A model generated the notes under the pieces. The model had not been told where the DNA came from. It was given only the letters and a program-made list of their open reading frames with translations, and made no database searches. Below are positions 3,979 to 38,262 of a stretch of DNA of 64,000 bases, in pieces. The position numbers and the translations under genes were made by a program. Source of the stretch: Candidatus Nezhaarchaeota archaeon (GTDB taxonomy: Archaea > Thermoproteota > Methanomethylicia > Nezhaarchaeales > WYZ-LMO8); NCBI GenBank assembly GCA_025059375.1, contig JANXDO010000001.1, positions 350,097 to 414,096 on the forward strand, given 5' to 3'. Positions within the stretch are counted from its first letter, which is position 1, and each line of letters begins with the position of its first letter.

Positions 3979-3990
3979 TAGTTAAAAGGC
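3979..3990 (-). promoter_or_regulatory. TATA box of the PP-loop amidotransferase gene
   Basis: Read on the minus strand this is GCCTTTTAACTA. It is centred about 45 bases upstream of the TTG start at 3939, which would place transcription initiation near 3958 with a short leader. Assigned by position and A/T composition only. Confidence 0.4.
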
Positions 3991-5713: not shown

Positions 5714-5745
5714 ACGAGAATCAAGTCGATTCGAAGCGTTTACTA

Positions 5746-6174
5746 TCATAGTACTTTGGCCTCCTTTAAGCTTCTCTCAATTAAGCTCACGTACCTCTTC
5801 ACGGACTGAAGAATTCTCTCAGCATAATCTCTTGTGAACGCTCTTGATGCTGGTATCCCCTCCCTCTCATAGCCGTAAAGGGCCACCCCCCTTATGGAGG
5901 CTAGCTGAGAGACGAGCATAGCTAGCTCACTAACCTCGAGCTTAACGCCTTCCGGTAGAGAGTCGCTATGCTCCACGAGTACGTCACTCACGTCATGGCT
6001 TCGTGGGTACTCTATTCCAATAGCTCTCAACAAGGCCTTAACAGCCATTTCGAGAGCTTCCTGAGACCTCCTAATCGAAGTTGCATTATCACCGTCCTCT
6101 AAGGCCATGTCTGCTTCCTTCAGAAAACGCTTGGATCTAAAGATGTAGTCCCTAGCCATCTCTATGTTTATCAT
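5746..6174 (-). CDS. HEPN-domain protein (partner of MNT nucleotidyltransferase)
   Basis: A 142-residue all-helical HEPN domain. The segment RRSQEALEMAVKALLRAIG followed by PRSHDVSDVL is the typical core of the family, and a long C-terminal helix follows. HEPN proteins paired with minimal nucleotidyltransferases act as toxin-like RNases, with the nucleotidyltransferase as antitoxin or modifier. It overlaps the upstream nucleotidyltransferase gene by four bases (5' end at 6174, partner stop at 6171), the standard arrangement for these pairs. Toxicity is inferred from the family and not visible in the sequence. Confidence 0.8.
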   Translation of the reverse strand: MINIEMARDYIFRSKRFLKEADMALEDGDNATSIRRSQEALEMAVKALLRAIGIEYPRSHDVSDVLVEHSDSLPEGVKLEVSELAMLVSQLASIRGVALYGYEREGIPASRAFTRDYAERILQSVKRYVSLIERSLKEAKVL

Positions 6175-6683
6175 ACCTTAATCACTTCACCTAATCTTGC
6201 TCCCGGCTTTAGAACCCAGTACCATCCATGCTTGCCTCTAACCCTAGTGGCACCTAGCTCCCTAAGCCTTTCTCTAAGCTTTTTAAGCTCATTATCTAGA
6301 AAATCACCCTTATCGATTAATGGTATCCCATCGACGGTCAGGTCTAAGAGTATTGGTGGGTGCTTCTGAACCTCCTCAGGTGTTAATATGACTTCAGATA
6401 TCGTTGTAGGTAGACCCTTATCTCTTAATATCTTCCTCAAGCTCAAGGTCCTCTGTCTAAACACTCTCTTGACTTGGAACGCTATCTCAAGCCTCTCATC
6501 CACCTCCTCACTAAGGCCTCTAGCAACTACAAGCAAGTCTATGTCACTGCCCTCAGAGAATTCACCTCTAGCCACACTGCCGAAAATGTACACCGAAATG
6601 AGATTGTCGCGAAGGAACTCCATGAGTACATCGAGGTAAACGTTAAGGTACTCCTTAAGCGCATCACTCAAAGCATCACTCAT
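6171..6683 (-). CDS. MNT-type minimal nucleotidyltransferase
   Basis: A 170-residue DNA-polymerase-beta-superfamily nucleotidyltransferase. The signature YIFGSVARGEFSEGSDIDLLV lies at about residues 33-52, with the GS loop and the DxD metal ligands intact. A longer than usual C-terminal extension (about residues 100-170), rich in basic residues, contains GKHGWYWVLKPGARLG, possibly a small wing-like nucleic-acid-binding element. It is the first gene of the MNT/HEPN pair. Known antitoxins of this class AMPylate the HEPN toxin; that reaction is inferred here. Its start is ATG at 6683, close to a repeated SDAL motif. Confidence 0.8.
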   Translation of the reverse strand: MSDALSDALKEYLNVYLDVLMEFLRDNLISVYIFGSVARGEFSEGSDIDLLVVARGLSEEVDERLEIAFQVKRVFRQRTLSLRKILRDKGLPTTISEVILTPEEVQKHPPILLDLTVDGIPLIDKGDFLDNELKKLRERLRELGATRVRGKHGWYWVLKPGARLGEVIKV

Positions 6684-6910
6684 TTATAGGGATCCACCGA
6701 GAGAAGGTTCGCTCAGCATTAATTAAACATTACTATCACACTAATCCATCACCATCGCTCACACTTTGAGGGGGTCAACTCTCATCACCTAAAGCTATCA
6801 CAGTATTGCAAGAGGCCCCTCATTATCTTAATTAAGGCTGTTGTCGAACCCAAAGTTGATCATCCCTAGCAGCTCATCAACATTAAAAAGTTAACTCTAC
6901 GTAGACGTCC

Positions 6911-7957
6911 CTACAATGCGTACTCTCTCTTCCTCTTCCTTAAGAGGTATATGAAGAATGGCCCTCCGGCTAAGGCTGTTACTATCCCCACGGGTATTTG
7001 AGCTGGTGCTAGGGCCACCCTCGCAATGCTATCGCACGTCACTAAGAAGATCGCTCCAAAGAGCATTGAGCAGGGCAGCAGTACCCTATGGTCTGGGCCA
7101 ACGATAAGCCTGACGATGTGTGGCACCATGAGGCCCACGAAAGCAATCATCCCTATAAAGGAAACGGCTATTGCTGTTGCCAAGGAGCTCACAACTATCA
7201 GTATAAGCTTTAATACCTCTATATTCACTCCAAGGGTCAAGGCAGTCTCCTCACCCATCAACATTATGTTAAGGTCCCTAGCATATAGCATGGCTACAAT
7301 GCAGCAAACTATTAGGATGGGCATTGATATGGTCACGTAGTCCCACCGAGCCATAGCTAAGTTCCCTAGAAGCCAGAAATATAGACCATGAAGCTTCTCA
7401 CCAGCCATCATTGAGAGAAAGGAGGTTATGGCTGAGAGTAGCATGCCAACAGCTATGCCAGATAGAAGAAGGGTCATGACTGGAACCCTACCACCAACCC
7501 TACTAAGGTTATAAACTGCCACTAGCGCTATCATGGCGAACATGAAGGCCATAGTTGGAATAGCTGCTATACCTAAGACTGCAAATCCAAAACCTAAAAC
7601 AATCGCTAAAGCAGCCCCAAGCGCAGCTCCAGCTGAGACCCCTACGACATACGGATCAGCCATTGGATTCCTAAACATCCCTTGAAGAAGAGCTCCAGCA
7701 AGTGATAGTGCTGCTCCGACTACGCAACCCATTAGGACTCTAGGAACTCTAATTGTCAATATTATCTTCTCGTAGACTACATCAACATCAACTAATGGAT
7801 TCAATGGCTTAAGAAGAGCTTTCAAGACATCTGTGGGAGGTATGAAGAAGGAGCCTATACAGGTGGAAAGAATTATCGTGATAAATAAGGCAATCACTAA
7901 GAGTGTAGTGTACAGTTTCCACCTTCGCCTTCTAGCTGCGATCGCTGTTGGTATCAA
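6911..7957 (-). CDS. btuC: BtuC/FecCD-type ABC transporter permease
   Basis: Inner-membrane permease for cobamide or iron-chelate uptake. At 348 residues with about nine or ten hydrophobic segments, it has the family hallmarks. These are RVPRVLMGCVVGAALSLAG, FRNPMADPYVVGVSAGA, GEETALTLGVN (coupling to the ATPase) and FVGLMVPHIVRLIVGPDHR. It starts with TTG at 7957 inside the stop of the binding-protein gene (TTGA overlap), so it is translationally coupled to it. The location next to cobalamin genes favours corrinoid rather than iron transport. No ATP-binding subunit gene is adjacent, which is unusual. Confidence 0.85.
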   Translation of the reverse strand: MIPTAIAARRRRWKLYTTLLVIALFITIILSTCIGSFFIPPTDVLKALLKPLNPLVDVDVVYEKIILTIRVPRVLMGCVVGAALSLAGALLQGMFRNPMADPYVVGVSAGAALGAALAIVLGFGFAVLGIAAIPTMAFMFAMIALVAVYNLSRVGGRVPVMTLLLSGIAVGMLLSAITSFLSMMAGEKLHGLYFWLLGNLAMARWDYVTISMPILIVCCIVAMLYARDLNIMLMGEETALTLGVNIEVLKLILIVVSSLATAIAVSFIGMIAFVGLMVPHIVRLIVGPDHRVLLPCSMLFGAIFLVTCDSIARVALAPAQIPVGIVTALAGGPFFIYLLRKRKREYAL

Positions 7958-22900: not shown

Positions 22901-23652
22901 AGTATAAAGACGAGTATAGAAACTGGTTTGTACCAAGAGATTGGTTTAAGGAGGGCGCACATGAGTGCATAAGACCAACTAGATCCATTGATGCACTGAC
23001 ACTCAACCGTTTAGTAATGGATGGCTCTATAACCACAATAATCCCACTGACCATGAAGCACTATAGGCTCTACGACCTCATATTCCGTAGGTTTATAGCA
23101 AGCCAGATGCGAAGAGCTGTAGCAGTAAAAGTGAAATACAAATTTAAGCTTGAAATAAATGGTAAGTATTACACGACGGATCACGAGGGCATAATCGACA
23201 TTAAGGATCCGGGATTCCTGGATGTACTTGGTTATAGAAAGCTGAAGAATTTTAAGATTGGTGACAAATTAAAGATTGAAGAGGTTGAGTTAAGAAGGAC
23301 ATCAAGAACATCATTCTTTAAGGAGGGAGACATCATAAAGTTAATGAAGGAGAGGGGCATAGGTAGACCATCAACCTACTCAAAGATAGTTGAGGGTCTA
23401 ATACGGCATGGGTACGTTATAAAGAATAAGTGGGGCGGTCTCATAGCAACTGGTCTCGGTATTAACGTCTACGACTATCTAATTAGAAGGTTTAAAGAGC
23501 TCGTATCAGAAGCTACGACTAAAGAGCTAGAGGAGAAGATGGCTCTAGTGGAGGAGGGCCGCATAGAGTATCAAAGCGTCTTGAGATTAATAGCTAATCA
23601 ACTTGATGAGCTGCTTAAAGGTGCTGAGAGTGTTGAGCTTACCACTAGATAA
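19912..23652 (+). CDS. rgy: Reverse gyrase
   Basis: A 1246-residue full-length reverse gyrase that introduces positive supercoils into DNA with ATP. An N-terminal zinc finger (CPNC and CKEC, residues 10-40) is followed by an SF2 helicase-like domain with Walker A APTGVGKT near residue 116 and a DDVD Walker B motif near 219. A topoisomerase IA domain then begins at VVESPTKAKTIANFFG (about residue 657) and contains a second zinc finger (CRKCG...CPRCG). The active-site tyrosine is Y974 in ITYHRTDSTR. No frameshift or intein is seen. This gene is the hallmark of hyperthermophiles and many thermophiles. A likely TATA box lies at about 19871-19883. Confidence 0.95.
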   Translation: MMHAIFSKLCPNCSGDITDDRLLNGLPCKECLPDTYEINDLIKLASTSSLDFKLKIGEILKAHGRLLGYKEHVELAHKLKDFEDFFTEVTGKRMWSAQRAWAKRALSGLSFAIIAPTGVGKTLFAVTLTLYYAKHGKKTLFVLPTVVLANQVYEWLKKYSEKAFINLKIALLFGGHVKDKEEAFKAVRDGQFDVVVMTPMSLAKNFEHMKGLRFDLIAVDDVDALLRRSKNIDRVLQLMGFPAEVIDLALRALKERAKMAGLLRTGRNERIEEVRAKINEMVEQLNALKLKEGFGQLIILSATGRARGLRVRLFRELLGFEAGTIMEYMRNIQDCYCMVDGRGPEDLMKATLELVRKLGSGGLIYVSFDLGSKYAKALTDYLISNGIKAAFAKSGLRGVGKLIDSFASGELDVLVGVASYYGVIVRGLDLPERVRYAIFISVPKFKFTLEAEENQPIRLLQIMSVIQTIVEGEGVFQIAKMIAEMRRHALRLGYEEARLVSRALHEGVELEGYLEEVRKLFAKAKLMINELLKREEIKRKFLSSPLIDAREIEGTLFIFVPDVMTYIQASGRTSRMYTGGLTKGLSIVLYLPDDQNSLNNLIKQTKIYIDDIQWRPLTEVDLDKLLEEIDEDRVKAKKASAGEVEEVKDPVKSALIVVESPTKAKTIANFFGKPSRRIIGSLKVLETFTGNFLLSIIATRGHIFDLITENMGKHGILQIGDLHIPIYNTIKKCRKCGYQFTTDSGSCPRCGSSLIVKSDDVVNLLRRLASEVDLALIATDPDVEGEKIGWDVACTIAPYVSEIKRCEFHEVTRRAIYEAINNPREISIPMVEAQIVRRIEDRWIGFSLSEQLWKAFGKKWLAAGRVQTPVLGWIIERCKEWKQNVTNFLIVSVEDGLKLYFDVPLPYKEIRDSLLKIKESFVVVEGVDLKEVEINPPPPFTTDELLYVASTKGFSSADTMRIAQELFEMGFITYHRTDSTRVSDVGKSIARDYLYEKYKDEYRNWFVPRDWFKEGAHECIRPTRSIDALTLNRLVMDGSITTIIPLTMKHYRLYDLIFRRFIASQMRRAVAVKVKYKFKLEINGKYYTTDHEGIIDIKDPGFLDVLGYRKLKNFKIGDKLKIEEVELRRTSRTSFFKEGDIIKLMKERGIGRPSTYSKIVEGLIRHGYVIKNKWGGLIATGLGINVYDYLIRRFKELVSEATTKELEEKMALVEEGRIEYQSVLRLIANQLDELLKGAESVELTTR

Positions 23653-24355
23653 GTTAGCATGGTGCATAACTGGAGCGGGCCACTACATTCTCGAAAGCAT
23701 AGAGGTCATGGAGACGCTCTTAGCCAGGGGCTTCAAGATAACAGTGTTCATATCTCAAGCGGGCCTTGAGGTCGTTAGGATTTATGGTTTAGAGAACAGG
23801 TTGAGAGCCATAGCTAATGGTAGCTATTATAGGGAGCTTGTGGGTCCAAGTGATGGAGCTAGCTGCGCTAAAGCTGGTAGGCTCCTAATGAAGATGTACC
23901 GAGCTTTGATAGTCTCGCCGGCTACAGCCAACACTGTAGCCAAGATAGTTAGAGGGATAGCTGACACACCACCGACAATAGCCGTAGCGCAGGCACTCAA
24001 GGGTGGCGTGAAGGTGGTGATTGTCCCTACAGATATCGAGTTAGAGTACGAGACTGAGACTCCACACATGGTTGATAGAGCAATTTGTGAGGAGTTTAAG
24101 TGTCAAACTTGTAGACCCATATTCTCGTGCCCAGTGAGAGCCTTTGACCTCGTTGACGGGCTAGGTCACATAGACCTCTCTAAGTGTATTGGTTGTTCTA
24201 GTTGCATCAAAGCCTGCCCATTCGGGGCAGTTAAGTTTAGGGTTAAGGTAAAAGCTAGAAGTAGTCCTATAGACTTAGAGAACGTCAAGAAACTCATGTC
24301 GATGAAGAACGTTGTGGTTCTCAAGAGACCGGCTGATATACTATGTGAGATATGA
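23606..24355 (+). CDS. Iron-sulfur flavoprotein, DmrX-like archaeal dihydromethanopterin reductase / archaeoflavoprotein
   Basis: An N-terminal flavoprotein domain begins at WCITGAGHYILESIEVM and includes VSPATANTVAKIVRGIADT, a typical FMN-binding segment. A ferredoxin domain with CIGCSSCIKACPFGAV (about residues 190-206) follows, plus a separate cysteine group CQTCRPIFSC. This order is that of the MJ0208-type archaeoflavoproteins and of DmrX, which reduces dihydromethanopterin to tetrahydromethanopterin. The neighbouring mfnA-mptD genes make DmrX function plausible. The frame overlaps the end of reverse gyrase by almost 50 bases. Possible starts are TTG 23603, ATG 23606, GTG 23621 or GTG 23630, and the homologous N-termini favour one of the later ones. 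Confidence 0.7.
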   Translation: MSCLKVLRVLSLPLDKLAWCITGAGHYILESIEVMETLLARGFKITVFISQAGLEVVRIYGLENRLRAIANGSYYRELVGPSDGASCAKAGRLLMKMYRALIVSPATANTVAKIVRGIADTPPTIAVAQALKGGVKVVIVPTDIELEYETETPHMVDRAICEEFKCQTCRPIFSCPVRAFDLVDGLGHIDLSKCIGCSSCIKACPFGAVKFRVKVKARSSPIDLENVKKLMSMKNVVVLKRPADILCEI

Positions 24356-24509: not shown

Positions 24510-25058
24510 ATGACTTTGACAGCATTGGCAGAACGTCCAAGCCCAAGGAAACCAATAACAGCAGATCAACTTGATCTAAAGCTACCAGACGAGCTCATAG
24601 TAGCAGGCGTTGAGAGGATAAGAGAGTGTATCCAGTGTGGTACATGTACGGCATCATGTCCGTCAGGTAGAAGAACTGCTTACAGAACTAGACTCCTAAT
24701 GAGAAAGACGCTCCTAGGATTAAAGGATGACCTACTTAAGAGCCTTGATCTATGGCTGTGCACAACATGCTATACCTGTTATGAGAGGTGTCCAAGAAAA
24801 ATAAGTACAGTAGACACTATAATAACCCTAAGAAACATGGCCTCAGCCAAGGGCTTCATGATACCCAGACACAAGGAGATATCAAAGCAATTGATAGAGA
24901 AAGGGCACTTAGTGCCAATAAATGAAGCTAACATTAAGCGTAGAGCTGAGCTCGGGCTATCAGAGTTACCGCCTACAGTTCACTCTCACCCTGAAGCACT
25001 TAATGAAGTTAAGAAACTACTTCAATTAACTGGATTCACTAAACTGGTGGAGGGTTAA
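24510..25058 (+). CDS. hdrC: Heterodisulfide reductase subunit C (HdrC)
   Basis: A 182-residue iron-sulfur protein with two [4Fe-4S] ferredoxin motifs, CIQCGTCTASCPSG (about residues 37-50) and CTTCYTCYERCPR (about 88-100), as in HdrC. It relays electrons between HdrA and HdrB. The N-terminal 30 residues are an uncharacterised extension. First gene of a thirteen-gene cluster running to 38262; hdrB follows after four bases. In methanogens HdrABC reduces CoM-S-S-CoB. Here the natural disulfide or other acceptor cannot be read from sequence. Confidence 0.9.
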   Translation: MTLTALAERPSPRKPITADQLDLKLPDELIVAGVERIRECIQCGTCTASCPSGRRTAYRTRLLMRKTLLGLKDDLLKSLDLWLCTTCYTCYERCPRKISTVDTIITLRNMASAKGFMIPRHKEISKQLIEKGHLVPINEANIKRRAELGLSELPPTVHSHPEALNEVKKLLQLTGFTKLVEG

Positions 25059-25062
25059 CAGC

Positions 25063-25959
25063 ATGTCCACATTAAGATATGCCTTCTTCTTAGGCTGCAT
25101 CATGCCGAATAGGTATCCAGGCCTTGAATCCTCAATTAGGAGGGTCTTTAAAGAACTTGGGATAGAGCTCGTAGACATGAAGGGGGCCTCTTGCTGTCCA
25201 GCCCCCGGAGTGGCAAGGTCTTTTAGCTTTGATGCATGGCTTACACTTGCGGCTCGAAATTTATCAATAGCTGAAGAGATGGGTCTAGATGTTGTGACTG
25301 GTTGTAATGGTTGTTATGCCACGCTCAGAGAAGTAAGTCATGAATATCATGCTAAGGAGCGAATTAGGGAAAAAGTGAATAGCTACCTCTCTCAGATTGG
25401 GAGATCATTCAATGGCAAGATTCAGGCCAAGCACGTCCTTGAAGTGCTCTACTTTGATATTGGAGTTGAGAACCTCAAGAAATTTATAAAGAAACAATTA
25501 AACCTCCGAGCCGTAGTTCATTACGGTTGCCATCTAATAAAGCCTAGCAATAAGAGACCATGGATGGAAAGTGTTGAGAGGCCTAGATTCTTTGATGAGC
25601 TTGTGGAAGTAACAGGGGCTAAAAGTGTTGATGTGAAGGATAAATACATGTGTTGTGGTGCTGGTGGAGGTGTTAGGTCAGGGGTTATTGATGTCGCCCT
25701 CGACATAACGAGGGAGAAGATTGAGAATGCATATGCAAGTAAAGCTGATTGCATCGTGAACGCCTGTTCCTTCTGCCATCTACAGTTCGACTTAGGCCAA
25801 GTTGAAATAAATAAGGCTCGTAACACTTCATACAGTATGCCCATAATCTATTACACGCAACTATTGGGCCTGGCCATGGGCTTTAGCCCTAAGGAACTTG
25901 GCTTGCATCAGAACTTCATAAGCGTCGAACCCCTCCTAAAGAAGATAGGTACTGCATGA
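25063..25959 (+). CDS. hdrB: Heterodisulfide reductase subunit B (HdrB)
   Basis: A 298-residue CCG-domain protein with two complete cysteine-rich (CCG) motifs. The first includes FLGCIMPN, ASCCPAPG and TGCNGCYATL. The second includes HYGCHLIKP, YMCCGAGGG and NACSFCHLQFD. These coordinate the noncubane [4Fe-4S] clusters that cleave heterodisulfides in methanogen HdrB. Both motifs are intact, so true disulfide reductase activity is plausible. The stop overlaps the next gene by four bases (ATGA). A role in another HdrB-type redox complex is possible. Confidence 0.9.
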   Translation: MSTLRYAFFLGCIMPNRYPGLESSIRRVFKELGIELVDMKGASCCPAPGVARSFSFDAWLTLAARNLSIAEEMGLDVVTGCNGCYATLREVSHEYHAKERIREKVNSYLSQIGRSFNGKIQAKHVLEVLYFDIGVENLKKFIKKQLNLRAVVHYGCHLIKPSNKRPWMESVERPRFFDELVEVTGAKSVDVKDKYMCCGAGGGVRSGVIDVALDITREKIENAYASKADCIVNACSFCHLQFDLGQVEINKARNTSYSMPIIYYTQLLGLAMGFSPKELGLHQNFISVEPLLKKIGTA

Positions 25960-26492
25960 TAGTAGCTAAGGAGGTTACTGAAGTGGTTGAGGTTGAGCCT
26001 AGAGAGAAACCGTTTATTGAGAGGTTTGTGTCTTATAGATCCTTAACTAGAAGAGTCTTCTACATTGATATTGAGAGGTGCATAGGTTGTAAATCGTGCG
26101 AAGCTGCTTGCGCTAGAGTCCATGGTGGATCACCAAGAATGTACATACAGACACTTTCAGAGTTTAATGTGCCGATGCACTGTCAACACTGCGAGGTTCC
26201 TGCGTGTGTTGAATCTTGCCCTGAAAAAGCCATAGACGTCACAAACGAGGGGTTCACCATAATAAATGAAGCTAAGTGTGTAGCGTGTAAGGCTTGTGTG
26301 GTAGCTTGTCCCTTCGGCATTCCAAGGCTCGAAGAAGAGAGGAAAGTAGTTGTTAAGTGTGATATGTGCATTGATAGGATAAGACAAGGGTTAGAGCCTG
26401 CCTGCGTGGCTACATGCACTTCAGAGGCCTTGAAGTTCATAAACTGCATAGGCTGTAACATATGCGTCATCTCATGTCCATTTGCTAAATGA
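25956..26492 (+). CDS. Polyferredoxin, DmsB/HycB-type electron-transfer subunit
   Basis: A 178-residue protein with four [4Fe-4S] cluster motifs arranged as in HycB/DmsB-type subunits of molybdopterin enzymes: CIGCKSCEAACARVHGG, CQHCEVPACVESCP, CVACKACVVACPFG and CDMCIDRI...CVATC. It also ends with an extra incomplete ferredoxin motif, CIGCNICVISCP, at the very C-terminus. It would carry electrons between the molybdopterin protein encoded two genes downstream and the Hdr module. It overlaps hdrB (ATGA). The 27-base gap to the next gene is the largest in the operon. Confidence 0.85.
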   Translation: MIVAKEVTEVVEVEPREKPFIERFVSYRSLTRRVFYIDIERCIGCKSCEAACARVHGGSPRMYIQTLSEFNVPMHCQHCEVPACVESCPEKAIDVTNEGFTIINEAKCVACKACVVACPFGIPRLEEERKVVVKCDMCIDRIRQGLEPACVATCTSEALKFINCIGCNICVISCPFAK

Positions 26493-26519: not shown

Positions 26520-27080
26520 ATGAGCCCAGATTCCCAAGTAAAGCTAGAGGAGTTTAGGAAGCTATTACTCGAGTTTGCGAGAAAGAAGGGCATCATCCCA
26601 GCTGAAGTTGCAATCGAAGTTCCCGAACTAGTGAAGGGCTTTGGCAAACCGATATTTGACTCAGATAAGTGTTGGGGGTGCGCTGCCTGCTCTGTTCAGT
26701 GTCTAGGCAATGCATTAAGGCTTATCGAAACTCAGAATAGAAGAAGGATATATATGGACTATTGGAAGTGCGTAGCTTGCGAAGAATGCTCTATTAAGTG
26801 CCCCAAAGAAGCAGTTAAAGTTGAGAGGATTTTTGACCTCTCAAGCTTCTTAAGTGATGAGCCCGCTCTTGTGGTTGATGTCGAACTTCGTAGATGCACA
26901 CTTTGTGGAAGCTCCATATCATCAGTTAAGCAAGTCGAGGAGGTGTGTGACTTAATAAAGGCGTTGCCCATATCTCAAATCCACCTTGACAGGATAAGAT
27001 CCCTATGTGAGGAATGCAAGAAGATTGTTACGGCCAAGATCCTGCTCATGAGTAGAGGTGTAAGTATTGAAAAAGGTTAG
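26520..27080 (+). CDS. HycF/NuoI-like ferredoxin with C-terminal Cys pairs
   Basis: A 186-residue protein. After a helical N-terminus it has two [4Fe-4S] motifs, CWGCAACSVQCLG and CVACEECSIKCPKEAV. A C-terminal region with two CxxC pairs (CTLCG and CEECK) follows. This is the arrangement of HycF-type connecting subunits of formate hydrogenlyase-like complexes, and it parallels the protein encoded at 37672-38262, so the operon has two such connectors. It probably links the molybdopterin subunit to the polyferredoxin. Its end overlaps the molybdopterin gene by 14 bases, implying coupled translation. Confidence 0.8.
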   Translation: MSPDSQVKLEEFRKLLLEFARKKGIIPAEVAIEVPELVKGFGKPIFDSDKCWGCAACSVQCLGNALRLIETQNRRRIYMDYWKCVACEECSIKCPKEAVKVERIFDLSSFLSDEPALVVDVELRRCTLCGSSISSVKQVEEVCDLIKALPISQIHLDRIRSLCEECKKIVTAKILLMSRGVSIEKG

Positions 27081-28983
27081 GTCAATATGCCCTTTTTGTT
27101 GTCTTGGTTGTGGTCTAGAACTGCTGGTGGATGATGGGAGGATCGTAGGTGTAGAGTACCTCCCAGATCATCCAAATGAGGGCTCTTTATGCAGTCGAGG
27201 CAACACTAGCTACGAGATCATACAACACCCTGAAAGGCTTGCAACTCCACTAGTTAGAGAGGGCGATGAATTTAAGAGTACTAGCTGGGACTATGCTCTT
27301 AAGTTTCTGTCCAACAAGTTGATAGAGATAAGGTCTAAGCATGGTCCGCATTCGATAGGCGTCATAGCCTCAGCTAGAATGTCAAATGAAGATTGCTACG
27401 TAACTCAAAAATTTGCTAGAATAGTCTTAGGGACAGCAAACATAGATAGCCCGGCTAGATTAACTCATGCAGCTACTCTAAAGGTTCTGGTTGATAGTCT
27501 AGGATACCCGTGGGCTACATGCAGCTTGGACTTAATAGAGTCCTCCGACATAATATTCATGATCGGAGCAAACCCATTTGAAGTGAATCCAGTCTTGGCT
27601 AGAAGAATTTTAAGAGCTAGAGATAGAGGAGCAATAATAATTGTTGTAGATCCTAGACGCACAAAAACTAGTTGGAAGTCAGATCTACATCTCCAAGTTA
27701 AGCCTGGACGAGACTTAGAGCTTCTTCTATCAATACTAAACGTGATAGTGTCATCAAAGATGGTTAAGGAGGAAGCTTGGAGCGTTAAGGGCTTCGAGGA
27801 GATAGCTAAACTGTCTGAGAGCTACGCCCCCGAGGTCGTCGAGAGCGACGTTGGGGTGAGCTCTAAGATGATAAGGGAGGCTGCTCTCAGGCTAGCGCTT
27901 TCCAAGAAGCCCATAGTTATGTATTCTCACGGTATAACCCAACAGCTGAGAGCCTTGGACACTTTGAGAGCACTGATCGCCTTAAGCACGGCTATAGGGG
28001 TATTCTTCAGCGGGGGTCTCATTCCACTTACTGATCGAAGCAACATGCAGGGGGCAAGCGACGTAGGCTGCTTAGCTGAGTATGGCCCCGGCTATGAGCC
28101 AACATCTAGGGGGTTAACTATAGCCGAGATGGTTAAAGCTGCCGAGAGGGGTGATCTTAAGGCCCTCGTAGTAATAGGATTTGACTTAGCCTCATCATTA
28201 CCAAGTTTTGAGTACGTTAGAAACGTTCTGAGGAACCTTGACCTCCTAGTAGTAATTGATATCTTTCCAAACGAGACAGCCAAGCTAGCTCACGTAATTT
28301 TGCCGGCATGCTCTTGGGCTGAGTATGATGGGACCTATACGAACATTGAGGGTAGGGTTCAGAGAGCATTTAAGGCTATAGAGCCGTTTAACGATGCTAG
28401 GCCGACGTGGCTCATTCTATCCGAGCTTGCCACGATCATGGGGTCCAAGGCCCTCCACTACATCTCCTGGGTTGATGTGTTCAAGGAAATGACTCTAGCT
28501 GTTAAGCAATATTCAGAACTTAGTATTGATGAGGTCTCTAGGGTTGGAGGTCAACTCGTAAAGAAGAACTTCAAAGCTGAGTTGAAGCTAGAACCACTCA
28601 AGCTGAAATTGGAGCCACCCAAGAGTCGCCCTGATAAATTCACGTTAATAGCTGGTAGAGCCACTCACCATCTCGACAACGGTGATTTAACTCGCAAACT
28701 TAGCTTCGCGATGAAGCAACTACCGGGACCCTACATAGAAGTCTCTCAGGAGGACGCCTCGAAGCTAGGCTTAAGTGAGGGGGATGAAGTTGAGGTTAGA
28801 GGAGCTAGGGAATCCCTGAAGGTCAAGGTAAAGCTAGCCCCTAAAGGGTTAAGCAGCACCCTGTTCATGCCCATACATTTCCACCCATGCAGTCCCGTTT
28901 CGCTCATGGACTTAGAAATTGACGAGGAGACTAAAGCCCCTCAGTTAAAGCATGTAAACGTTGAATTAGTAAAGTCGGGTTAA
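27067..28983 (+). CDS. Formate-dehydrogenase-like molybdopterin oxidoreductase without catalytic Cys/Sec
   Basis: A 638-residue member of the FdhA/FdhF branch of molybdopterin oxidoreductases. The N-terminal [4Fe-4S] motif is intact (C8, C11, C15, C42 in ICPFCCLGCG and SLCSRG). MIGANPFEVNPVLARRI, DPRRTKT, and the C-terminal molybdopterin dinucleotide-binding domain (ASKLGLSEGDEVEVRG) are present. In formate dehydrogenases a Cys or selenocysteine precedes the conserved His in an AR-x-C/U-H motif. Here the segment reads DSPARLTHAATL, with Thr133 (codon 27463-27465) in that place. It may therefore be an electron-transfer subunit or act on another substrate. No FdhB gene is present. It starts at TTG 27067. 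Confidence 0.8.
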   Translation: MKKVRSICPFCCLGCGLELLVDDGRIVGVEYLPDHPNEGSLCSRGNTSYEIIQHPERLATPLVREGDEFKSTSWDYALKFLSNKLIEIRSKHGPHSIGVIASARMSNEDCYVTQKFARIVLGTANIDSPARLTHAATLKVLVDSLGYPWATCSLDLIESSDIIFMIGANPFEVNPVLARRILRARDRGAIIIVVDPRRTKTSWKSDLHLQVKPGRDLELLLSILNVIVSSKMVKEEAWSVKGFEEIAKLSESYAPEVVESDVGVSSKMIREAALRLALSKKPIVMYSHGITQQLRALDTLRALIALSTAIGVFFSGGLIPLTDRSNMQGASDVGCLAEYGPGYEPTSRGLTIAEMVKAAERGDLKALVVIGFDLASSLPSFEYVRNVLRNLDLLVVIDIFPNETAKLAHVILPACSWAEYDGTYTNIEGRVQRAFKAIEPFNDARPTWLILSELATIMGSKALHYISWVDVFKEMTLAVKQYSELSIDEVSRVGGQLVKKNFKAELKLEPLKLKLEPPKSRPDKFTLIAGRATHHLDNGDLTRKLSFAMKQLPGPYIEVSQEDASKLGLSEGDEVEVRGARESLKVKVKLAPKGLSSTLFMPIHFHPCSPVSLMDLEIDEETKAPQLKHVNVELVKSG

Positions 28984-31900: not shown

Positions 31901-32277
31901 TGGGCATATTTATTGCTGGTGGCAGTCAAGGACCCAAAGACATAACTGACACCGTATCTCAGGCTCTAGCTGCTTCAGCTAAAGCCTCAATTCCATTATC
32001 GAGGGGCTTCATAGAGATTGAATTGACTAAGGCTCATGTGGATGAACTGCTATGCATAGGTTGTGGACAATGCAGGGATGTGTGCCCCTACAGGGCCATA
32101 GAGATTGTGGAAATGTCCCCCGGTAAGAGGGTGGCAAGAGTCCGCGAGCTTGAGTGCGAAGGTTGTGGTGCATGTGCCGCTACATGTAGGACGGGTGCCA
32201 TGCAGCTAAGGCACTTCAAGGACAGCCAACTATTAGCTCAGTTAGTGGGCTTACTTGGGGGCTCAACGAGTGAGTAG
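28993..32277 (+). CDS. hdrA: Double HdrA: one HdrA nested inside another (1094 residues)
   Basis: A flavin and iron-sulfur protein, the site of electron bifurcation in Hdr complexes, about 1.6 times the usual size. The N-terminal HdrA domain is residues 1-150. GGGxAG flavin-binding motifs occur twice close together (157-162 and 184-189). Ferredoxin-like clusters occur at 280-290, 326-341, 686-696 and 733-745, PYCSxxCC motifs at 434-441 and 838-845, and two C-terminal ferredoxin motifs at 1021-1070. The second half resumes at FEVYLIEKSPYLGG (607-620) without its own GGGxAG motif. The simplest reading is an inner HdrA core (about 176-604) inserted after the first Rossmann helix of an outer HdrA. 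All cysteine motifs are intact. It overlaps mvhD by 23 bases. Confidence 0.9.
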   Translation: MSLARNPKNGRRIGVFICHCGKNIAGTVDVEEVRKYCEKIPDVIVAKDYVFMCSEAGQNLIKDAIREHKLNRIVVAACSPKLHEATFRRCLEEVGLNKFYLEMANIREQCSWVHLNEPKKATEKAKALISAAVAKVKEHEEIGTLREDVTKKSMVIGGGVAGIEAALSLASQRKGKLKSVLVIGGGIAGIQASLDLADMGYKVYLVERKPVIGGNMAKTYKTFPTDDCAMCILSPKMNDVAANPNIKLITNAEVTSVDGEPGYFKVRIKVHPRYVDISKCTGCGACSEKCPGLAPDDWNVFGTRKAIYIPYPQGVPRKYVIDPKYCLYLTKGICRVCEKICYAKAINFEDRGEELEIEVGAIIVATGWEEFNPEPLAQYGYGKYKNVVTVVQLTRMFDVTGPTGGKVIRLNDKKPVNRLLIVNCVGARDERYVPYCSTVCCMAALRNAQLLKFEQNPNAEVYICYIDMRTAGKGYEEYYKRAQNMGINFIRGKVAEVYEDEGTGNMIARVEDTVSGEILELEVDLVALACPMIPSQGTRQIAKLLKLETDEFGFIKPRHYKLAPVETSKPGIFACGCATGPKDIPDTVASASAAAMRATEFLEGRPFEVYLIEKSPYLGGLTFKLARTFLVEEPLPDMITPLFKEISDNRNVHLLLNSEILEVKGHAGNFTVKVRQNPRYVDPAKCTECGLCMRVCPVTTDDEWNLGLTKRTAIYRPHPDAYPRGYVIDPKSCKFASCAKCVEVCPHKAINLDEKPKEFEIRVGTIITSSGMSEFKPTILEQYGYGVYSDVITQLQLARLLDPKGPTHGKLVRLSNGEVPKSVVMVQCTGSRDENVYPYCSRICCAVALKAAKMIKEQIPDCMVYICYIDMRAIGMLELYYKQVQSMGVNFVRGKVAEIVKEAGRLKVKVEETLLDVPLEIPADLVVLSAALIPAEGTSDLAKVLGIDVGSDGFLRELHPKLRPVDSKTMGIFIAGGSQGPKDITDTVSQALAASAKASIPLSRGFIEIELTKAHVDELLCIGCGQCRDVCPYRAIEIVEMSPGKRVARVRELECEGCGACAATCRTGAMQLRHFKDSQLLAQLVGLLGGSTSE

Positions 32278-32713
32278 CGAGTTAAGCGAAGCATTTGAGC
32301 CTCTAATAGTCGCCTTCTGCTGTGAACATTGTGCTTATGCTGCAGCAGACTTAGCTGGGACGTCTAGAATGCAGTATCCCCCCAACGTTAGGATTGTGAA
32401 GGTTCCTTGTACGGGGAGAGTGGATATGCTCTACATACTCAAAGCATTCCAGCTAGGAGCCGATGGAGTCTTTGTCGCTGGTTGTTTAAAGGGGGGCTGT
32501 CACTTTATTGATGGTAATTTAAAAGCTGAAGCTAGGGTTCAATTCTTAAAGAGGATACTGGATTCACTAGGTTTTGGCGGTGATAGATTAGACATGTTCT
32601 TCATGTCATCGTCTATGGCCAATGAATTCGTTAAGGTGGCTCGTGAGTTTACTGAGAAGATCAGGAAGCTTGGACCAAATCCTTGCTTTAAAAGGCAGGG
32701 AGGTTGGAGGTAG
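32255..32713 (+). CDS. mvhD: MvhD-like iron-sulfur subunit (hydrogenase delta subunit)
   Basis: A 152-residue [2Fe-2S] adaptor protein. IVAFCCEHCAYAAADLAG, VPCTGRVD and FVAGCLKGGCHFIDGN are the conserved cysteine motifs of MvhD. In methanogens MvhD bridges the electron donor (hydrogenase or formate dehydrogenase) to HdrA. Here MvhGA genes are absent from the window. It sits directly between hdrA and the six Ech-type hydrogenase genes, and a molybdopterin protein is encoded upstream, so either could be its donor. The start is TTG 32255 within hdrA, or GTG 32270. Confidence 0.9.
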   Translation: MGAQRVSSELSEAFEPLIVAFCCEHCAYAAADLAGTSRMQYPPNVRIVKVPCTGRVDMLYILKAFQLGADGVFVAGCLKGGCHFIDGNLKAEARVQFLKRILDSLGFGGDRLDMFFMSSSMANEFVKVAREFTEKIRKLGPNPCFKRQGGWR

Positions 32714-32719: not shown

Positions 32720-33175
32720 GTGAGCTTTAAAGTACCTTCAAGTCTTGAAGAGCTCTTAGACTTAATCAAAGAGGAGCTAAAACCTTCAAGAATTGAAGTT
32801 AGAAACAGTAGGAGGGTATACGTCGAGATAAAGAAGGAAGATATTAGGAATGCAGCTAAACTACTCTTAGATCTATTTGAGCCTCTTAGAGGTAGGCTCT
32901 CAACGGCATCAGCTCTTGATTGTAAAGATCACTTTGAAATACTGTACCATTTCACCTTCAGTCAGCTCGGTTTAGTATTGACGTTGAGATGTAGGCTACC
33001 AAGATACAAGCCTGAGATAGACTCCATAGCTGATATAATTTATGGAGCTGACTTCATTGAGAGGGAGATGCACGACCTTATGGGCATATCATTTAAAGGC
33101 CATCCAAACCTCAAGAGATTGTTGCTGCCAGACGATTGGCCTGAGGGTGTCTATCCACTTAGGAGGTATGGTTGA
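32720..33175 (+). CDS. Group 4 [NiFe] hydrogenase 30-kDa-like subunit (EchD/NuoC-like)
   Basis: A 151-residue homologue of the NuoC/30-kDa complex I subunit. The C-terminal signature YGADFIEREMHDLMGISFKG followed by HPNLKRLLLPDDWP and YPLRR is diagnostic. This peripheral subunit stabilises the catalytic module of Ech- and complex I-type enzymes. It starts with GTG at 32720, six bases after mvhD, and overlaps the large-subunit gene by four bases. It is the first of six consecutive Ech-type genes. Confidence 0.85.
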   Translation: MSFKVPSSLEELLDLIKEELKPSRIEVRNSRRVYVEIKKEDIRNAAKLLLDLFEPLRGRLSTASALDCKDHFEILYHFTFSQLGLVLTLRCRLPRYKPEIDSIADIIYGADFIEREMHDLMGISFKGHPNLKRLLLPDDWPEGVYPLRRYG

Positions 33176-34368
33176 TGTCTAAGCTAGAGCGAGGAGTCAT
33201 GATACCTCTGGGTCCATACCACCCAACATTCAAAGAGCCTGAGCTATTCAAGCTGTATGTTGATGGAGAGGATATAGTAGACGTAGACATTAGGCTAGGC
33301 TTCATGCATAGAGGGGTTGAGTATTTAGCTCAGAAAATGACGGTTCAACAAGTAGTCTTCTTGGTGGAAAGGATATGTGGCATATGTTCCACATCACATC
33401 CCATAAGCTTCTGTCAAGCCGTTGAGGAGGCTATGGGGCTCGAGGTCCCCGATAGGGCTAGGTACATTAGGACTCTAATAGGAGAACTAGAGAGGATCCA
33501 CAGCCACATGCTCTGGGCTGGAGTGGCACTACACCTCATAGGCTACGACACCCTCTTCATGTACTTCTGGAGATATCGTGAGCCAGTGTGTGAGTTGTTC
33601 GAAGAGCTTACAGGCAATAGGCAGCACTACGCCATGCTATGCCCTGGAGGTGTCAGAAGAGACGTAGACTTAAAGAAGATGAAGCCCAAGATACTTAAGG
33701 TTATGAAGGAGGTCAAGGAAGCCATGACCAGGCTAGCCGATGCTGTGGCTAGAGACAAGCTCGTGAAGATGAGGATGGAGGGGGTTGGCGTCTTAACTAA
33801 GCAAGATGCTATAAAGTACTGTGTTGTGGGTCCAACTGCTAGGGGGTCAGGACTTAAGATCGATGTTAGGGTTGACGAGCCTTACGCGGCATACAAGGAT
33901 TTAGGTGTTGACGTGAAGGTTATGAGCGAGGGTGATGTGCTCGCCAGAACCCTTGTCAGGGCTCTGGAGACTATAGAGTCCACAGAAATAGTAGAGAGAT
34001 GTGTTGACGCCATGCCGAACGGACCAATAAAGGCGGAGTTCGACAAGTATCCCATAGCTGAAGGGATAGGAAAGCATGAAGCTCCTAGAGGTGAGGTAAT
34101 CCACTATGTAAAGCTCAATGGCACGCCAGTACCTGAAAGAGTTAAAATCAGGGCTCCAACGTACGCAAATCTACCATCACTGATCCCTCAACTCATAGGT
34201 TACTCGATAGCAGATGCACCGATAATAATAGGGGGAATAGATCCATGCTTCTGTTGCACAGAGAGGGTTTCAATAGTTGATGTTAAGGAGGGTAAGACCA
34301 TGACCCTAACTATGGATAAGTTCAATGAGTTCTGCAGGAAGAGGAAGAATCCCTTGAAGGTTGGTTGA
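33172..34368 (+). CDS. Group 4 [NiFe] hydrogenase large subunit (EchE/NuoD-like)
   Basis: A 398-residue catalytic subunit. Unlike NuoD of complex I it retains all four nickel-iron ligands: RICGICSTSH with C69 and C72, and DPCFCCTER with C359 and C362. It should therefore be an active hydrogenase. The start GPYHP and the DVDIRLGFMHRGVEYLAQ segment are typical of the group 4 family. It probably oxidises or evolves H2 at the cytoplasmic face, coupled to ferredoxin. Maturation would need hyp genes, which are not in the window. The protein continues about 37 residues past the last Cys ligand, so no cleavable C-terminal tail of the group 1 type is obvious. Confidence 0.9.
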   Translation: MMSKLERGVMIPLGPYHPTFKEPELFKLYVDGEDIVDVDIRLGFMHRGVEYLAQKMTVQQVVFLVERICGICSTSHPISFCQAVEEAMGLEVPDRARYIRTLIGELERIHSHMLWAGVALHLIGYDTLFMYFWRYREPVCELFEELTGNRQHYAMLCPGGVRRDVDLKKMKPKILKVMKEVKEAMTRLADAVARDKLVKMRMEGVGVLTKQDAIKYCVVGPTARGSGLKIDVRVDEPYAAYKDLGVDVKVMSEGDVLARTLVRALETIESTEIVERCVDAMPNGPIKAEFDKYPIAEGIGKHEAPRGEVIHYVKLNGTPVPERVKIRAPTYANLPSLIPQLIGYSIADAPIIIGGIDPCFCCTERVSIVDVKEGKTMTLTMDKFNEFCRKRKNPLKVG

Positions 34369-34372
34369 GCTA

Positions 34373-35341
34373 ATGGACGTCCACGTTATTGGGCTACTAA
34401 TTGCTCACATAGTCCTCGTAGGCCTCATAGCAGCACCTAACATAGGCTTACTCCTAACATGGCTCCATAGGAAGCTCGGAGCTAGAATGCAGTGGCGTAT
34501 TGGTCCTCCAGCATACCAGCCATGGGCTGACATCATGAAGTTGCTCTCGAAGGAGATGATAATCCCTGGCACGGCGCATAAATCAACATTCCTATTGGCA
34601 CCTCCATTAGCCCTCTCCTCAGCAATACTCAGCCTCTTAATAATGCCATTCGTTGCGCCCTCACCATTCGGGTTTGTTGGCGACGTGATAGTGGTCTTGT
34701 ACTTGATGACAATGCCGGCCATAGCTGCAATGGTTGGTGGATCAGCTTCAGGTAATCCTTATGCTGCAATTGGAGTCCAAAGAGAAATGACCTTACTGTT
34801 CTCCTACGAGCTTCCATTTATAGCAGCAGCTTTAGTACCCATACTTAAAGCTGGCAGCTTAAAGTTTAGCGACATAGTTACGTATCAGCTCAATAGCGGC
34901 CCGCTAATCTTTACCCTCTCAGGCTTCTTAGCGTTAATCGTCATGATAGCAGTCATGCAGGCTAAGCTAGCCCTCCCACCATTCGATGTACCTGAAGCTA
35001 AGACAGAGATAGTCACTGGTCCCTATGTAGAGTACTCAGGACCATTACTCGCAATGTTCAAGCTCGCACACGCCATCATGCTGCTCGTCGTGCCCTGCTT
35101 CATAGCCAACATGTTCCTTGGCGGTCTGATAGTTAGGAGTTTGAGTGACCCAGCTATACTCGCAATAGACTCCACGCTAATAGTGGTTAAGATAGTAGCG
35201 CTGGTAACCATAGCTGCTATTATAAGGTTCTACAACCCTAGGTTGAGGCCAGATCAAGCTTTCGGCATGTTCTGGAAGACCATAACCTTAATAGCCATGA
35301 TAGCCCTAGTCTCAAGCTTCATTCCATTACCGTACTTCTAG
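34373..35341 (+). CDS. Group 4 hydrogenase membrane subunit (EchB/NuoH-like)
   Basis: About 322 residues with eight or so transmembrane helices, the NuoH/HyfC-type membrane anchor that meets the peripheral arm. RKLGARMQWRIGPPAYQPWAD matches the conserved cytoplasmic loop of NuoH, and PFDVPEAKTEIVTGPYVEYSG matches its conserved acidic loop. I prefer ATG 34373 over TTG 34361, because the latter lies within the large-subunit gene and adds four residues without support. One copy only, as in six-subunit Ech. Confidence 0.9.
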   Translation: MDVHVIGLLIAHIVLVGLIAAPNIGLLLTWLHRKLGARMQWRIGPPAYQPWADIMKLLSKEMIIPGTAHKSTFLLAPPLALSSAILSLLIMPFVAPSPFGFVGDVIVVLYLMTMPAIAAMVGGSASGNPYAAIGVQREMTLLFSYELPFIAAALVPILKAGSLKFSDIVTYQLNSGPLIFTLSGFLALIVMIAVMQAKLALPPFDVPEAKTEIVTGPYVEYSGPLLAMFKLAHAIMLLVVPCFIANMFLGGLIVRSLSDPAILAIDSTLIVVKIVALVTIAAIIRFYNPRLRPDQAFGMFWKTITLIAMIALVSSFIPLPYF

Positions 35342-35788
35342 GTGGTGATGTGGATGTTAAAACTGGCTACATGGGCCCGTGTGAAGAGCCCATGGCTATT
35401 CCACTTCAATGCAGGGTCCTGCAATAACTGTGATATAGAGCTCTTGGACGTCCTAACGCCTAGGTTTGACGTTGAGAGATTTGGAGTACTTTTAGAGGGG
35501 AGTCCAAGGCATGCCGATATATTAGTCATAACCGGAGTCGTTAATAGACAAACTCTACCAAGACTTAAGAGAATTTACGACCAGATGCCCAACCCCAAGA
35601 TAGTCGTAGCCCTCGGCACGTGCGCGACATCAGGAGGCATATTCTCTGAGAGTTACAATATGGCTGGCCCCCCTGACAGAGTCGTGCCGATTGACGTCTA
35701 CATACCAGGTTGCCCCCCCAGACCTCAAGCCATCATCGATGGCATCGTAAAGGCGCTGGCGAAGCTTCAAGCCCTTAAAGGTAGGTGA
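35342..35788 (+). CDS. Group 4 hydrogenase small subunit (EchC/NuoB-like)
   Basis: A 148-residue protein with the proximal [4Fe-4S] cluster motif of NuoB-type subunits: AGSCNNCDIELLDVL, then LGTCATSGG and IPGCPPRPQAII, the four ligand cysteines all present. It passes electrons between the nickel-iron site and the ferredoxin subunit. Candidate starts are GTG 35342, ATG 35348 and ATG 35354, all just downstream of the NuoH-like stop. It lacks the other clusters of standard hydrogenase small subunits, as usual for group 4. Confidence 0.9.
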   Translation: MVMWMLKLATWARVKSPWLFHFNAGSCNNCDIELLDVLTPRFDVERFGVLLEGSPRHADILVITGVVNRQTLPRLKRIYDQMPNPKIVVALGTCATSGGIFSESYNMAGPPDRVVPIDVYIPGCPPRPQAIIDGIVKALAKLQALKGR

Positions 35789-35794: not shown

Positions 35795-37675
35795 GTGGAC
35801 CTTCCAGTCATAATGCTAGTCATGGTAATGGTGCCGGTCATAGCCGGCCTCATAACTCTTGGGCTGAGTAAGGCTAGGGTCATTGCCGGTATCATCTCTT
35901 CGATTGCAGGCTTAATAGCACTGAGCATGGCTGGATTGTTACTATACAAGCTAAACATTGAGGACATAACTTACAAGGTGGTTTGGCACCTCAGCATAGC
36001 TGGGATGACTTGGAAGTTTGAGGTCACTAGACTTAACGCTATTAGCACACTCTTCACGGCTTTGCTGGGCCTCCTAATAGCACTGTACTCGACGAGCTAC
36101 ATGACTAAGTACAATGGTAGGGGCTACTACCATACACTGATACTCTGGAGCATAAGCGCATCCATTGTCGCTATGATGTCAATTAATTGGATATCGTTCT
36201 TAATATTCTGGGAGCTCTGCACATTAGCTTTGTTCTTCTTAATCAGGGCTGGAGGTAGTGAAGCTAGGGCTCCAGCATATAGAGCGCTCCTCTTGCTGGC
36301 ATCGTGTGACCTACTGATGGCTGTTGGAGTTGTCTTAGCTGTAGCTAAAATGCAGAGCCTCGAAATCTCTAGACTCGTAGGTTTAGATCATTTCAGCATG
36401 GGCTTAGTGTTCACGTTAATGCTTGTAAGCGCTTTAGCTAAAGCTGGAGGCATACCATTCCACACTTGGATCCCAGATATAGCTCCAAGCTCCCCTGCAA
36501 GCACATTAGCCCTCTATCCAGCTGCTTACGATAAGCTTCTAGGGATATTCAAGCTCGTAGTCGTATGCCACTACATCATAGTCTTCGCTCCATCAATTAG
36601 CACGGTAGTCACAATAATTGGAATGCTCACAATGCTCTTAGCGGTCCTCATGGCCATGGTTCAGCACGATATAAAGAAATTGCTTAGCTTTCATGCTGTC
36701 AGCCAGGTGGGCTACATGATAACTGGCATAGGCATTGGGACGTCACTGGCCATAGCGGGAGGCCTCTTCCACATGATTAACCACGTGATTTACAAAAGTT
36801 GCCTCTTCATGACAGCTGGAGCAGTCTTCTACGTTACTGGAGCTAAGGATGTTGAGAGACTGGGCGGGCTAGCTAGGAGGATGCCAGTCACCTTCATGTG
36901 TGCATTGGTAGCAGCTCTCGCCATATCGGGGGTTCCACCATTAAATGGTTTCGCAAGCAAATGGATGATATATCAGGCCTCCTTTGAAGCAACGACAATA
37001 AGCCCAGTTAATGCAGCTGCTGGTGTAGTTGCCGTTCTAGCTAGTGCACTAACACTGGCCTCATTCATAAAGTACCTTCACAGCGTGTTTCTAGGCCCCC
37101 TACCAAGGGAGTACGAGAGGGTTGAGGAGGGTCCTCTGAGCATGAGGATCCCCATGCTGGTGCTCGCAGCTCTATGCGTAGTCTTTGGGTTGCTCCCTCA
37201 AGCCCCCCTCAACTACATGGTCATACCGGCTTTGAGGAACATAGAGATAACGTATGGACCACTCGCTCTACCACCATTAGAGTGGGTGTACTTGGCCCCA
37301 TCAGCTTGGGCCTCTTGGAGCCCGATGGTAGCTACAACGCTAATCGCTCTCTTAGCGCTGGTGCTTGGGTTGGTCATATACATTGCGGGCAAGAGGGTTC
37401 AACCATTCACCTTCAGAACTGAGGCACTCAAACCATTTATTTCAGGGGAGGACATCATTGTTCATTACCATGGCGGGCACTTCTATAGTCCAGTTAAGCA
37501 CTCGCTTGGAAAGTTCTATTACATAGCCGATAGAGGAGGCTTCTCAATAGCGTGGAGGGCCATAGCGTCAGTCTTTAAGCCATTATTAAAAAGCTCGAGA
37601 AATGGCGTCCTATTCGTATACTCTCTATGGGCTCTAATGATAATATTCATAATGCTTGTTGGTGGTGGCATATGA
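35795..37675 (+). CDS. Group 4 hydrogenase antiporter-like subunit (EchA/NuoL-like)
   Basis: A 626-residue polytopic protein of the NuoL/MrpA/EchA family, the presumed ion-translocating subunit. Conserved elements include SISWELCTL-type FLIFWELCTLALFFLIRA, a helix with LAKAGGIPFHTWIPDIAPSSPA, and the VQHDIKKLLSFHAVSQVGYM segment with conserved Lys and His. About 14 hydrophobic segments are followed by a C-terminal amphipathic region with a last helix. Whether protons or sodium ions are pumped cannot be told. It starts at GTG 35795, seven bases after the small subunit, and overlaps the ferredoxin gene by four bases. Confidence 0.9.
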   Translation: MDLPVIMLVMVMVPVIAGLITLGLSKARVIAGIISSIAGLIALSMAGLLLYKLNIEDITYKVVWHLSIAGMTWKFEVTRLNAISTLFTALLGLLIALYSTSYMTKYNGRGYYHTLILWSISASIVAMMSINWISFLIFWELCTLALFFLIRAGGSEARAPAYRALLLLASCDLLMAVGVVLAVAKMQSLEISRLVGLDHFSMGLVFTLMLVSALAKAGGIPFHTWIPDIAPSSPASTLALYPAAYDKLLGIFKLVVVCHYIIVFAPSISTVVTIIGMLTMLLAVLMAMVQHDIKKLLSFHAVSQVGYMITGIGIGTSLAIAGGLFHMINHVIYKSCLFMTAGAVFYVTGAKDVERLGGLARRMPVTFMCALVAALAISGVPPLNGFASKWMIYQASFEATTISPVNAAAGVVAVLASALTLASFIKYLHSVFLGPLPREYERVEEGPLSMRIPMLVLAALCVVFGLLPQAPLNYMVIPALRNIEITYGPLALPPLEWVYLAPSAWASWSPMVATTLIALLALVLGLVIYIAGKRVQPFTFRTEALKPFISGEDIIVHYHGGHFYSPVKHSLGKFYYIADRGGFSIAWRAIASVFKPLLKSSRNGVLFVYSLWALMIIFIMLVGGGI

Positions 37676-38262
37676 CTAAGTGGAAGGCCATAACCGAAGG
37701 ATTTAGAGCCCTGTTTAAGGGGCCATTTACTGTAAGATATCCCCTCGAGCCCTCACCACCACCTGAGGCGTTTAGAGGGGCTCCCAAGCGAGACTCTGAG
37801 AAGTGTACTGCTTGTGGTGCGTGTGTTCAGAACTGTCCAACAGGTGCAATCTCGATCTTAGATTTAGGTAGAGATGTGGCTGTGAATGTTTGGTATGGTA
37901 AGTGCATATTTTGTGCCAGGTGTACTGAAGTATGCCCCGAAGAAGCTGTTAAGATGAGCTTGAAGTATGACTTAAGCACCTACAACAAGAATGAGGTGCA
38001 AGAGCAAGTCTCAATGGCAGCTTACAGGTGCCAAGAATGTGGTAAACTAGTTACCAGTGAGAGGCACGTTGACATCGTGATTGATAGGGTGAAGGTTCTA
38101 CCACTACCCCTAAACTATGTCACCACCATATCGCTATGTTCTGATTGTAGGAGGAGATATCAAGCATCACAACTACTAGGTTTAAGAGTTAAAGTAAGAC
38201 CGACGCTACCTGCCCCGGCAACAGTGAAAGCTGAAACTGTAAAAGCTGAGAAGAAACAATGA
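37672..38262 (+). CDS. Group 4 hydrogenase ferredoxin subunit (EchF/HycF/NuoI-like)
   Basis: 196 residues starting at ATG 37672, which overlaps the antiporter-like stop (ATGA). A longer frame from 37627 lies inside that gene. It has two [4Fe-4S] motifs, CTACGACVQNCPTGAI and CIFCARCTEVCPEEAV. A HycF-type C-terminal region with CxxC pairs (CQECG and CSDCR) and a flexible Ala/Val/Lys tail follow. It is the sixth and last Ech-type subunit. The same architecture occurs in the protein at 26520-27080, so the operon carries two related connectors. Confidence 0.9.
   Translation: MTKWKAITEGFRALFKGPFTVRYPLEPSPPPEAFRGAPKRDSEKCTACGACVQNCPTGAISILDLGRDVAVNVWYGKCIFCARCTEVCPEEAVKMSLKYDLSTYNKNEVQEQVSMAAYRCQECGKLVTSERHVDIVIDRVKVLPLPLNYVTTISLCSDCRRRYQASQLLGLRVKVRPTLPAPATVKAETVKAEKKQ

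Follow-up and report, generated by a model that had tools for sequence, protein, structure and literature searches.

What becomes of a formate dehydrogenase (FDH) whose metal-ligating Cys or Sec has been replaced by a Thr, and what would it do beside a heterodisulfide reductase (Hdr)? The question is raised by fdhA', a gene for an FdhA-like MopB protein in the window, by which we mean the whole stretch of 64,000 nucleotides analyzed, from a Candidatus Nezhaarchaeota assembly (G000; 1.47 Mb, 96% complete) that contains mcrA. Nezhaarchaea have been described as hydrogenotrophic methanogens outside Euryarchaeota, and we take the present host to be a methane-cycling hot-spring archaeon. FdhA' has the FDH fold and matches all three Pfam domains of TIGR01591 FdhA (Molybdop_Fe4S4, Molybdopterin and Molydop_binding), while its score against the TIGR01591 Fdh-alpha profile is 511 bits, below the 666-bit cut-off. 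The top fold matches of the AlphaFold2 model (mean pLDDT 86, pTM 0.89) are FdhH (1fdi) and the formate hydrogenlyase FdhF (7z0t), with a TM of 0.90-0.92; the former substrate loop (residues 324-330) is among the weakest stretches of the model.

Thr133, encoded by ACT within NIDSPARLTHAATL, aligns in phmmer comparisons with solved FDHs to Sec140 of E. coli FdhH, and likewise to the Sec/Cys of the F420-FDH 9t1s, the HDCR FdhF 7qv7 and M. hungatei FdhA 7bkb. MAFFT alignments anchored on E. coli FdhF and including NapA and NuoG gave the same placement, which confirms the residue and the coordinates given by the sequence-only reading. In the closest named relative, L036 (Ca. Nezhaarchaeota WYZ-LMO8; 67% identity to FdhA'), and in L007 (G121), Thr is encoded by ACG. 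Since these related Nezhaarchaeal genomes use a different codon for the same residue, Thr133 is not a base-calling error, and the local sequence error for which the earlier reading had left room is refuted. Decay into a pseudogene, the other way of dismissing the Thr, could appeal to fdhA' being the fastest-evolving gene of its cluster (67% identity against 70-87% for the neighboring genes), but the ORF is full-length in three genomes and the synteny is maintained, so that either form of this explanation is extremely improbable. An attempt at dN/dS met saturated dS for fdhA'.

The substitution is confined to one family. A survey of 300 genomes of the phylum found Cys in all the other homologues covering the site (18/18), and in bacterial relatives the residue is Cys or Sec. 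A profile search across the class (40 genomes) gave close matches in the same family only (G000, G103 and G121, with the C-terminal part alone in G216), the next match beyond it, L030, having Cys. The three Thr proteins form a clade (100/100) whose stem measures 1.19 changes per site; because the tree leaves their sister group unsettled, descent from a formate hydrogenlyase (FHL) or an Hdr-associated FDH is read from gene order only. The changed columns did not show a significantly unusual fixation within the Thr clade (15/19, p=0.14). A literature search gave no relevant report of Thr acting as metal ligand in the superfamily, and the open-access literature examined nowhere reports Thr at the ligand position of Nezhaarchaeal FdhA. 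Selenocysteine was considered for L007/L008 and rejected, the "1 TGA inside" being the terminal stop read through. Among the bacterial relatives, FdhA genes of Dehalococcoidia and Spirochaetes MAGs (L038, L039) present an unannotated in-frame TGA exactly at the active site, probably encoding Sec.

Other FDH residues have changed as well. Among 91 columns conserved at 90% or more in 18 Cys/Sec homologues, 60 are retained by all three Thr members, and those altered include K44R, C129P (the Cys of 'CAR'), C133T, G148P, H174N, R322T, G323D, T529A and N611V/L; moreover, FdhH Met297 is replaced by His, and the linker after residue 493 is shorter. Formate/CO2 is bound at the FdhH Arg333 position, at which nitrate reductases carry Thr (PMC10385643), as NapA does in our alignment. 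R322T and the loss of the ligand thus remove two formate-specific features, the active-site His adjoining the ligand position (H134) being kept. With neither the metal ligand nor the Arg that binds formate/CO2 left, and with a Thr that is fixed among the relatives, FdhA' should not be annotated as an FDH, a name that the sequence-only reading rightly considered misleading; we hold it very probable that FdhA' is not a formate dehydrogenase.

For FdhA' still to be an FDH, the ligand would have to come from another residue, such as C110, C152, C335 or D323, which are conserved in the Thr clade. The FDH-like fold would agree with this, and so would a 2025 survey (PMC12054007), in which Nezhaarchaeales sequences, named there beside Methanofastidiosales, Methanotrichales and Methanocellales, group with FdhA and are assigned formate oxidation from the tree. 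However, the substrate Arg has gone too, both Cys/Sec and Arg are present in the FDHs of every lineage compared, and no alignment tested brings a Cys into the site, which makes this possibility very unlikely. As FdhA' is the only FdhA-type MopB protein found here next to hdrA, we take it to be the sequence meant in PMC12054007, and the assignment made there from the tree alone is then probably contradicted by the FdhA' sequence. Concerning ANME, PMC9012536 states that FdhA homologues retain Cys, in disagreement with PMC12054007 on the ligand of ANME FdhA/Molybdop proteins, unless different sets are meant.

The cofactor sites have fared better. The four [4Fe-4S] ligands (C8, C11, C15 and C42) are all retained, as had been claimed; the further claim that the cofactor-binding regions are intact stands for most motifs and was too generous otherwise, given the count of conserved columns above. 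Also retained by the Thr members are R131, GxNxxExxP, DPR, D216, N326/Q328/G329, T404, E419, R531, T542 and K628, and the columns of bis-MGD type kept in FdhA' include N169, P175, V193, Q292 and R531, together with the DPR motif, which NuoG does not have. Of 73 columns without variation across eight bis-MGD enzymes, 69 are aligned in FdhA', which retains 70% of these; L036 retains 72% and E. coli NuoG 43%, NapA reaching 59% when excluded from its own reference set. With 70-72% versus 43%, FdhA' is by sequence not a NuoG-type shell, and the likeness to NuoG proposed earlier finds no support. The retained pterin-dinucleotide motifs suggest that FdhA' may still bind bis-MGD, though not in a site active on formate.

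The sequence-only reading suggested two roles, that of an electron-transfer scaffold and that of an enzyme with a different substrate, and both are still candidates. As such an enzyme, FdhA' would be a Mo/W-bis-MGD oxidoreductase that is active with Thr (or an oxo or water ligand) at the metal, and electrons from its substrate, other than formate, would pass through the four-cluster ferredoxin to MvhD-HdrABC; we regard this as possible, though not probable. Members of the superfamily with Ser, Asp or no metal ligand are known and count in its favor. So do the retained H134, GxNxxExxP, DPR, Q292, N326/Q328/G329, R531, T542 and K628, two conserved residues that are new in the pocket (H288 and D323), and the formylmethanofuran dehydrogenase B homologue encoded in the genome, from which it follows that bis-MGD is made. 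Active relatives have Arg at the Lys44 position and Thr at that of Arg333 (the Thr of NapA; PMC10385643). Against it, the literature search returned no Thr-ligated member, the local confidence of the model is lowest at the substrate loop 324-330, and the disappearance of several conserved pocket columns along with the ligand is more readily explained by an abandoned FDH reaction than by a simple exchange of ligand.

The neighborhood of fdhA' (Table 1) has the order hdrC-hdrB-HycB-like-HycF-like-fdhA'-double hdrA-mvhD, followed by a hydrogenase of nuoC/D/H/B/L/I type.

Table 1. Features of the fdhA' locus, in window coordinates
Feature	Positions	Strand	Evidence
hdrC	24510..25058	+	TIGR03290 CoB_CoM_SS_C, above cut-off
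hdrB	25063..25959	+	TIGR03288 CoB_CoM_SS_B, above cut-off
HycB/DmsB-type four-cluster ferredoxin, 20 Cys	25956..26492	+	DmsB/FDH-beta/HydN-type matches; Cys count
HycF-like protein, two 4Fe-4S and CxxC pairs	26520..27080	+	PRK12387, 68 bits, under cut-off
fdhA' (FdhA-like MopB protein)	27067..28983	+	TTG start, ORF of 638 aa
Arg44 codon, replacing FdhH Lys44	27196..27198	+	MAFFT alignment
Thr133, ACT codon, Cys/Sec metal-ligand position (FdhH Sec140)	27463..27465	+	phmmer and MAFFT alignments
Thr322-Asp323, replacing FdhH Arg333-Gly334 (substrate Arg lost)	28030..28035	+	alignments
double (type II) hdrA, 1094 aa	28993..32277	+	two TrxR-domain matches to HdrA2 in one frame
mvhD (FlpD)	32255..32713	+	PF02662, E=1.4e-51
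NuoC/EchD-like hydrogenase subunit	32720..33175	+	translation and operon position; conserved in L036
group 4 [NiFe]-hydrogenase large subunit (NuoD-like)	33172..34368	+	both Cys motifs, RICGIC and DPCFCC
NuoH-like membrane subunit	34361..35341	+	
NuoB-like small subunit	35342..35788	+	
NuoL/Mrp-like ion-translocating subunit	35795..37675	+	
NuoI/HycF-like hydrogenase FeS subunit	37627..38262	+	PRK12387, 122 bits

The cluster is complete in three genomes (the window's, L036 and L052) and partial in a fourth; a third genus (L053, G216) keeps the fdhA'-hdrA-mvhD linkage, and fdhA' and double hdrA are co-present or co-absent in the family genomes checked. Thr is indeed fixed in the close homologues that stand beside double hdrA. 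The top named match of the HycF-like protein is PRK12387, the FeS subunit of formate hydrogenlyase, and the protein is a paralogue of the hydrogenase FeS subunit (32% identity, E=1e-24). The RICGIC and DPCFCC motifs of the large subunit are as expected for a Ni-binding enzyme. No FdhB (F420) gene is present in the cluster, all PF04432 genes being on another contig. In the genome as a whole, checked by family searches and read stretches, there are four [NiFe] large subunits, one group 3b-like and three group 4-like (that of the fdhA' cluster included), and no MvhA-type hydrogenase or MvhAG was recognised. Since the other MopB proteins are of the PhsA/DMSO and FwdB types, no other candidate FDH was found.

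Several further observations concern the Hdr proteins and their surroundings. In the double HdrA, a pair of closely spaced GxGxxG motifs lies around residues 150-210 (VIGGGVAGIEAALSLA ... VIGGGIAGIQASLDLA), and the second flavin domain of the protein begins at VYLIEKSPYLGG, without GxGxxG; it looks as if one thioredoxin-reductase domain were inserted within the other. Directly upstream of the Hdr cluster (23603-24355), as also in L036 and L052, lies a gene for an MJ0208/DmrX-like flavoprotein of the dihydromethanopterin reductase type. The same genome has a second MopB-Hdr cluster (L082, G000:C2:72000-82000, 627-7247), composed of hdrB, a short hdrC-like ORF, a polyferredoxin, an HdrA-MvhD fusion and a FwdB-like protein, which scores 242 bits, below the cut-off, and has SICRVM where FwdB has Cys-His. 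A third HdrA (L083, G000:C1:64000-75000, 4850-7734), of 780 aa with a degenerate MvhD-like tail, is followed by a GcvH/lipoyl-carrier-like protein.

Our main reading, to which we give a probability of about one half, is that FdhA' is a repurposed FDH module which has ceased to oxidize formate and works within a Nezhaarchaeal Hdr complex as a subunit for electron transfer and assembly. Thr133 is fixed through independent synonymous codons, second-sphere FDH residues are also lost (K44R, R322T, G323D, M297H), the four [4Fe-4S] Cys and the synteny are conserved, there is no FdhB and no recognised MvhA-type hydrogenase, and the HycF-like gene is paralogous to the hydrogenase HycF/NuoI. In a bacterial relative with Cys (L037), fdhA-hycB-hycF precedes a group 4 hydrogenase, so that this cluster encodes a formate hydrogenlyase; hdrC-hdrB-fdhA with Cys occurs in a different family of archaea (L056). 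OmeA and the non-catalytic Molybdop proteins of type II HdrA clusters, discussed below, would be precedents. The retention of dinucleotide-binding motifs, odd for a pure scaffold, counts against this role, and, because fdhA' diverges faster than its neighbors, the role may be peripheral.

As to the mechanism, gene order alone leads us to infer a complex of FdhA', Hdr and hydrogenase. FdhA' would originate, to judge from the same gene order, from an FHL-like set FdhF-HycB-HycF, whose FDH arm would have been co-opted to connect the membrane hydrogenase with MvhD-HdrABC. The electron path would link the membrane hydrogenase (or ferredoxin) with HycF', HycB' and, perhaps, the cluster of FdhA', and continue via MvhD and the HdrA flavin to HdrB, at which CoM-S-S-CoB would be reduced; the reverse direction, in methane oxidation, is an alternative. 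More tentatively, and on balance doubtfully, the membrane [NiFe]-hydrogenase would be wired through a dead FDH module to a double-flavin heterodisulfide reductase, in one H2:heterodisulfide complex, possibly involving ferredoxin as well and coupled to an ion pump, which would replace the soluble Mvh-Hdr of other methanogens. The cluster seems to link a hydrogen-splitting enzyme to the enzyme recycling methanogenic cofactors. It bears on how Nezhaarchaea reduce heterodisulfide without the Mvh hydrogenase and offers a concrete, testable complex; if the main reading is true, it would add a further case, from a different MopB branch, of an FDH or formylmethanofuran-dehydrogenase module that lost its metal ligand yet stayed in an Hdr/hydrogenase complex.

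Known systems resemble this one in different parts. The HdrABC-associated or F420-dependent FdhA (e.g., Methanospirillum hungatei FdhA, 7bkb) has in common with FdhA' the fold, the domain set, the [4Fe-4S] site and the linkage to HdrABC-MvhD, but FdhA' is without Cys/Sec, substrate Arg and FdhB, and has the four-cluster ferredoxin and the HycF-like protein instead. The formate hydrogenlyase FdhF-HycB-HycF (7z0t; L037) likewise co-encodes FdhA, HycB-like and HycF-like proteins and a group 4 [NiFe]-hydrogenase, whereas in the FdhA' cluster the FDH catalytic residues are lost, HdrABC-MvhD is inserted and HycF is duplicated. According to PMC12054007, ANME-2/3, Methanolobus and Methanosarcina have type II HdrA clusters whose Molybdop protein has lost the Cys, so that both systems present a Cys-less MopB protein beside double HdrA, HdrBC and MvhD; that clade is FdhG/FhcB-like, with a pocket reportedly filled by Pro and Phe and with FdhB present, while FdhA' is FdhA-like, keeps more cofactor motifs and stands instead beside a hydrogenase cluster. 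NuoG of complex I shares the MopB fold, used there for electron transfer, and the [4Fe-4S] site, and differs in having lost the cofactor motifs. A closer counterpart than NuoG is OmeA/CISM (DET0187) of the Dehalococcoides organohalide-respiration complex, which has no FDH activity (PMC5736913): it is FDH-like with Ser at the Cys/Sec ligand position, and, accompanied by a four-cluster protein, it connects HupLS to RdhA (PMC5736913, PMC10772276). OmeA and FdhA' thus have in common a hydroxyl residue for Cys/Sec, a four-cluster protein, a [NiFe]-hydrogenase and a terminal reductase as output, OmeA differing by its outward-facing membrane complex, its other reductase, Ser rather than Thr and no Hdr.
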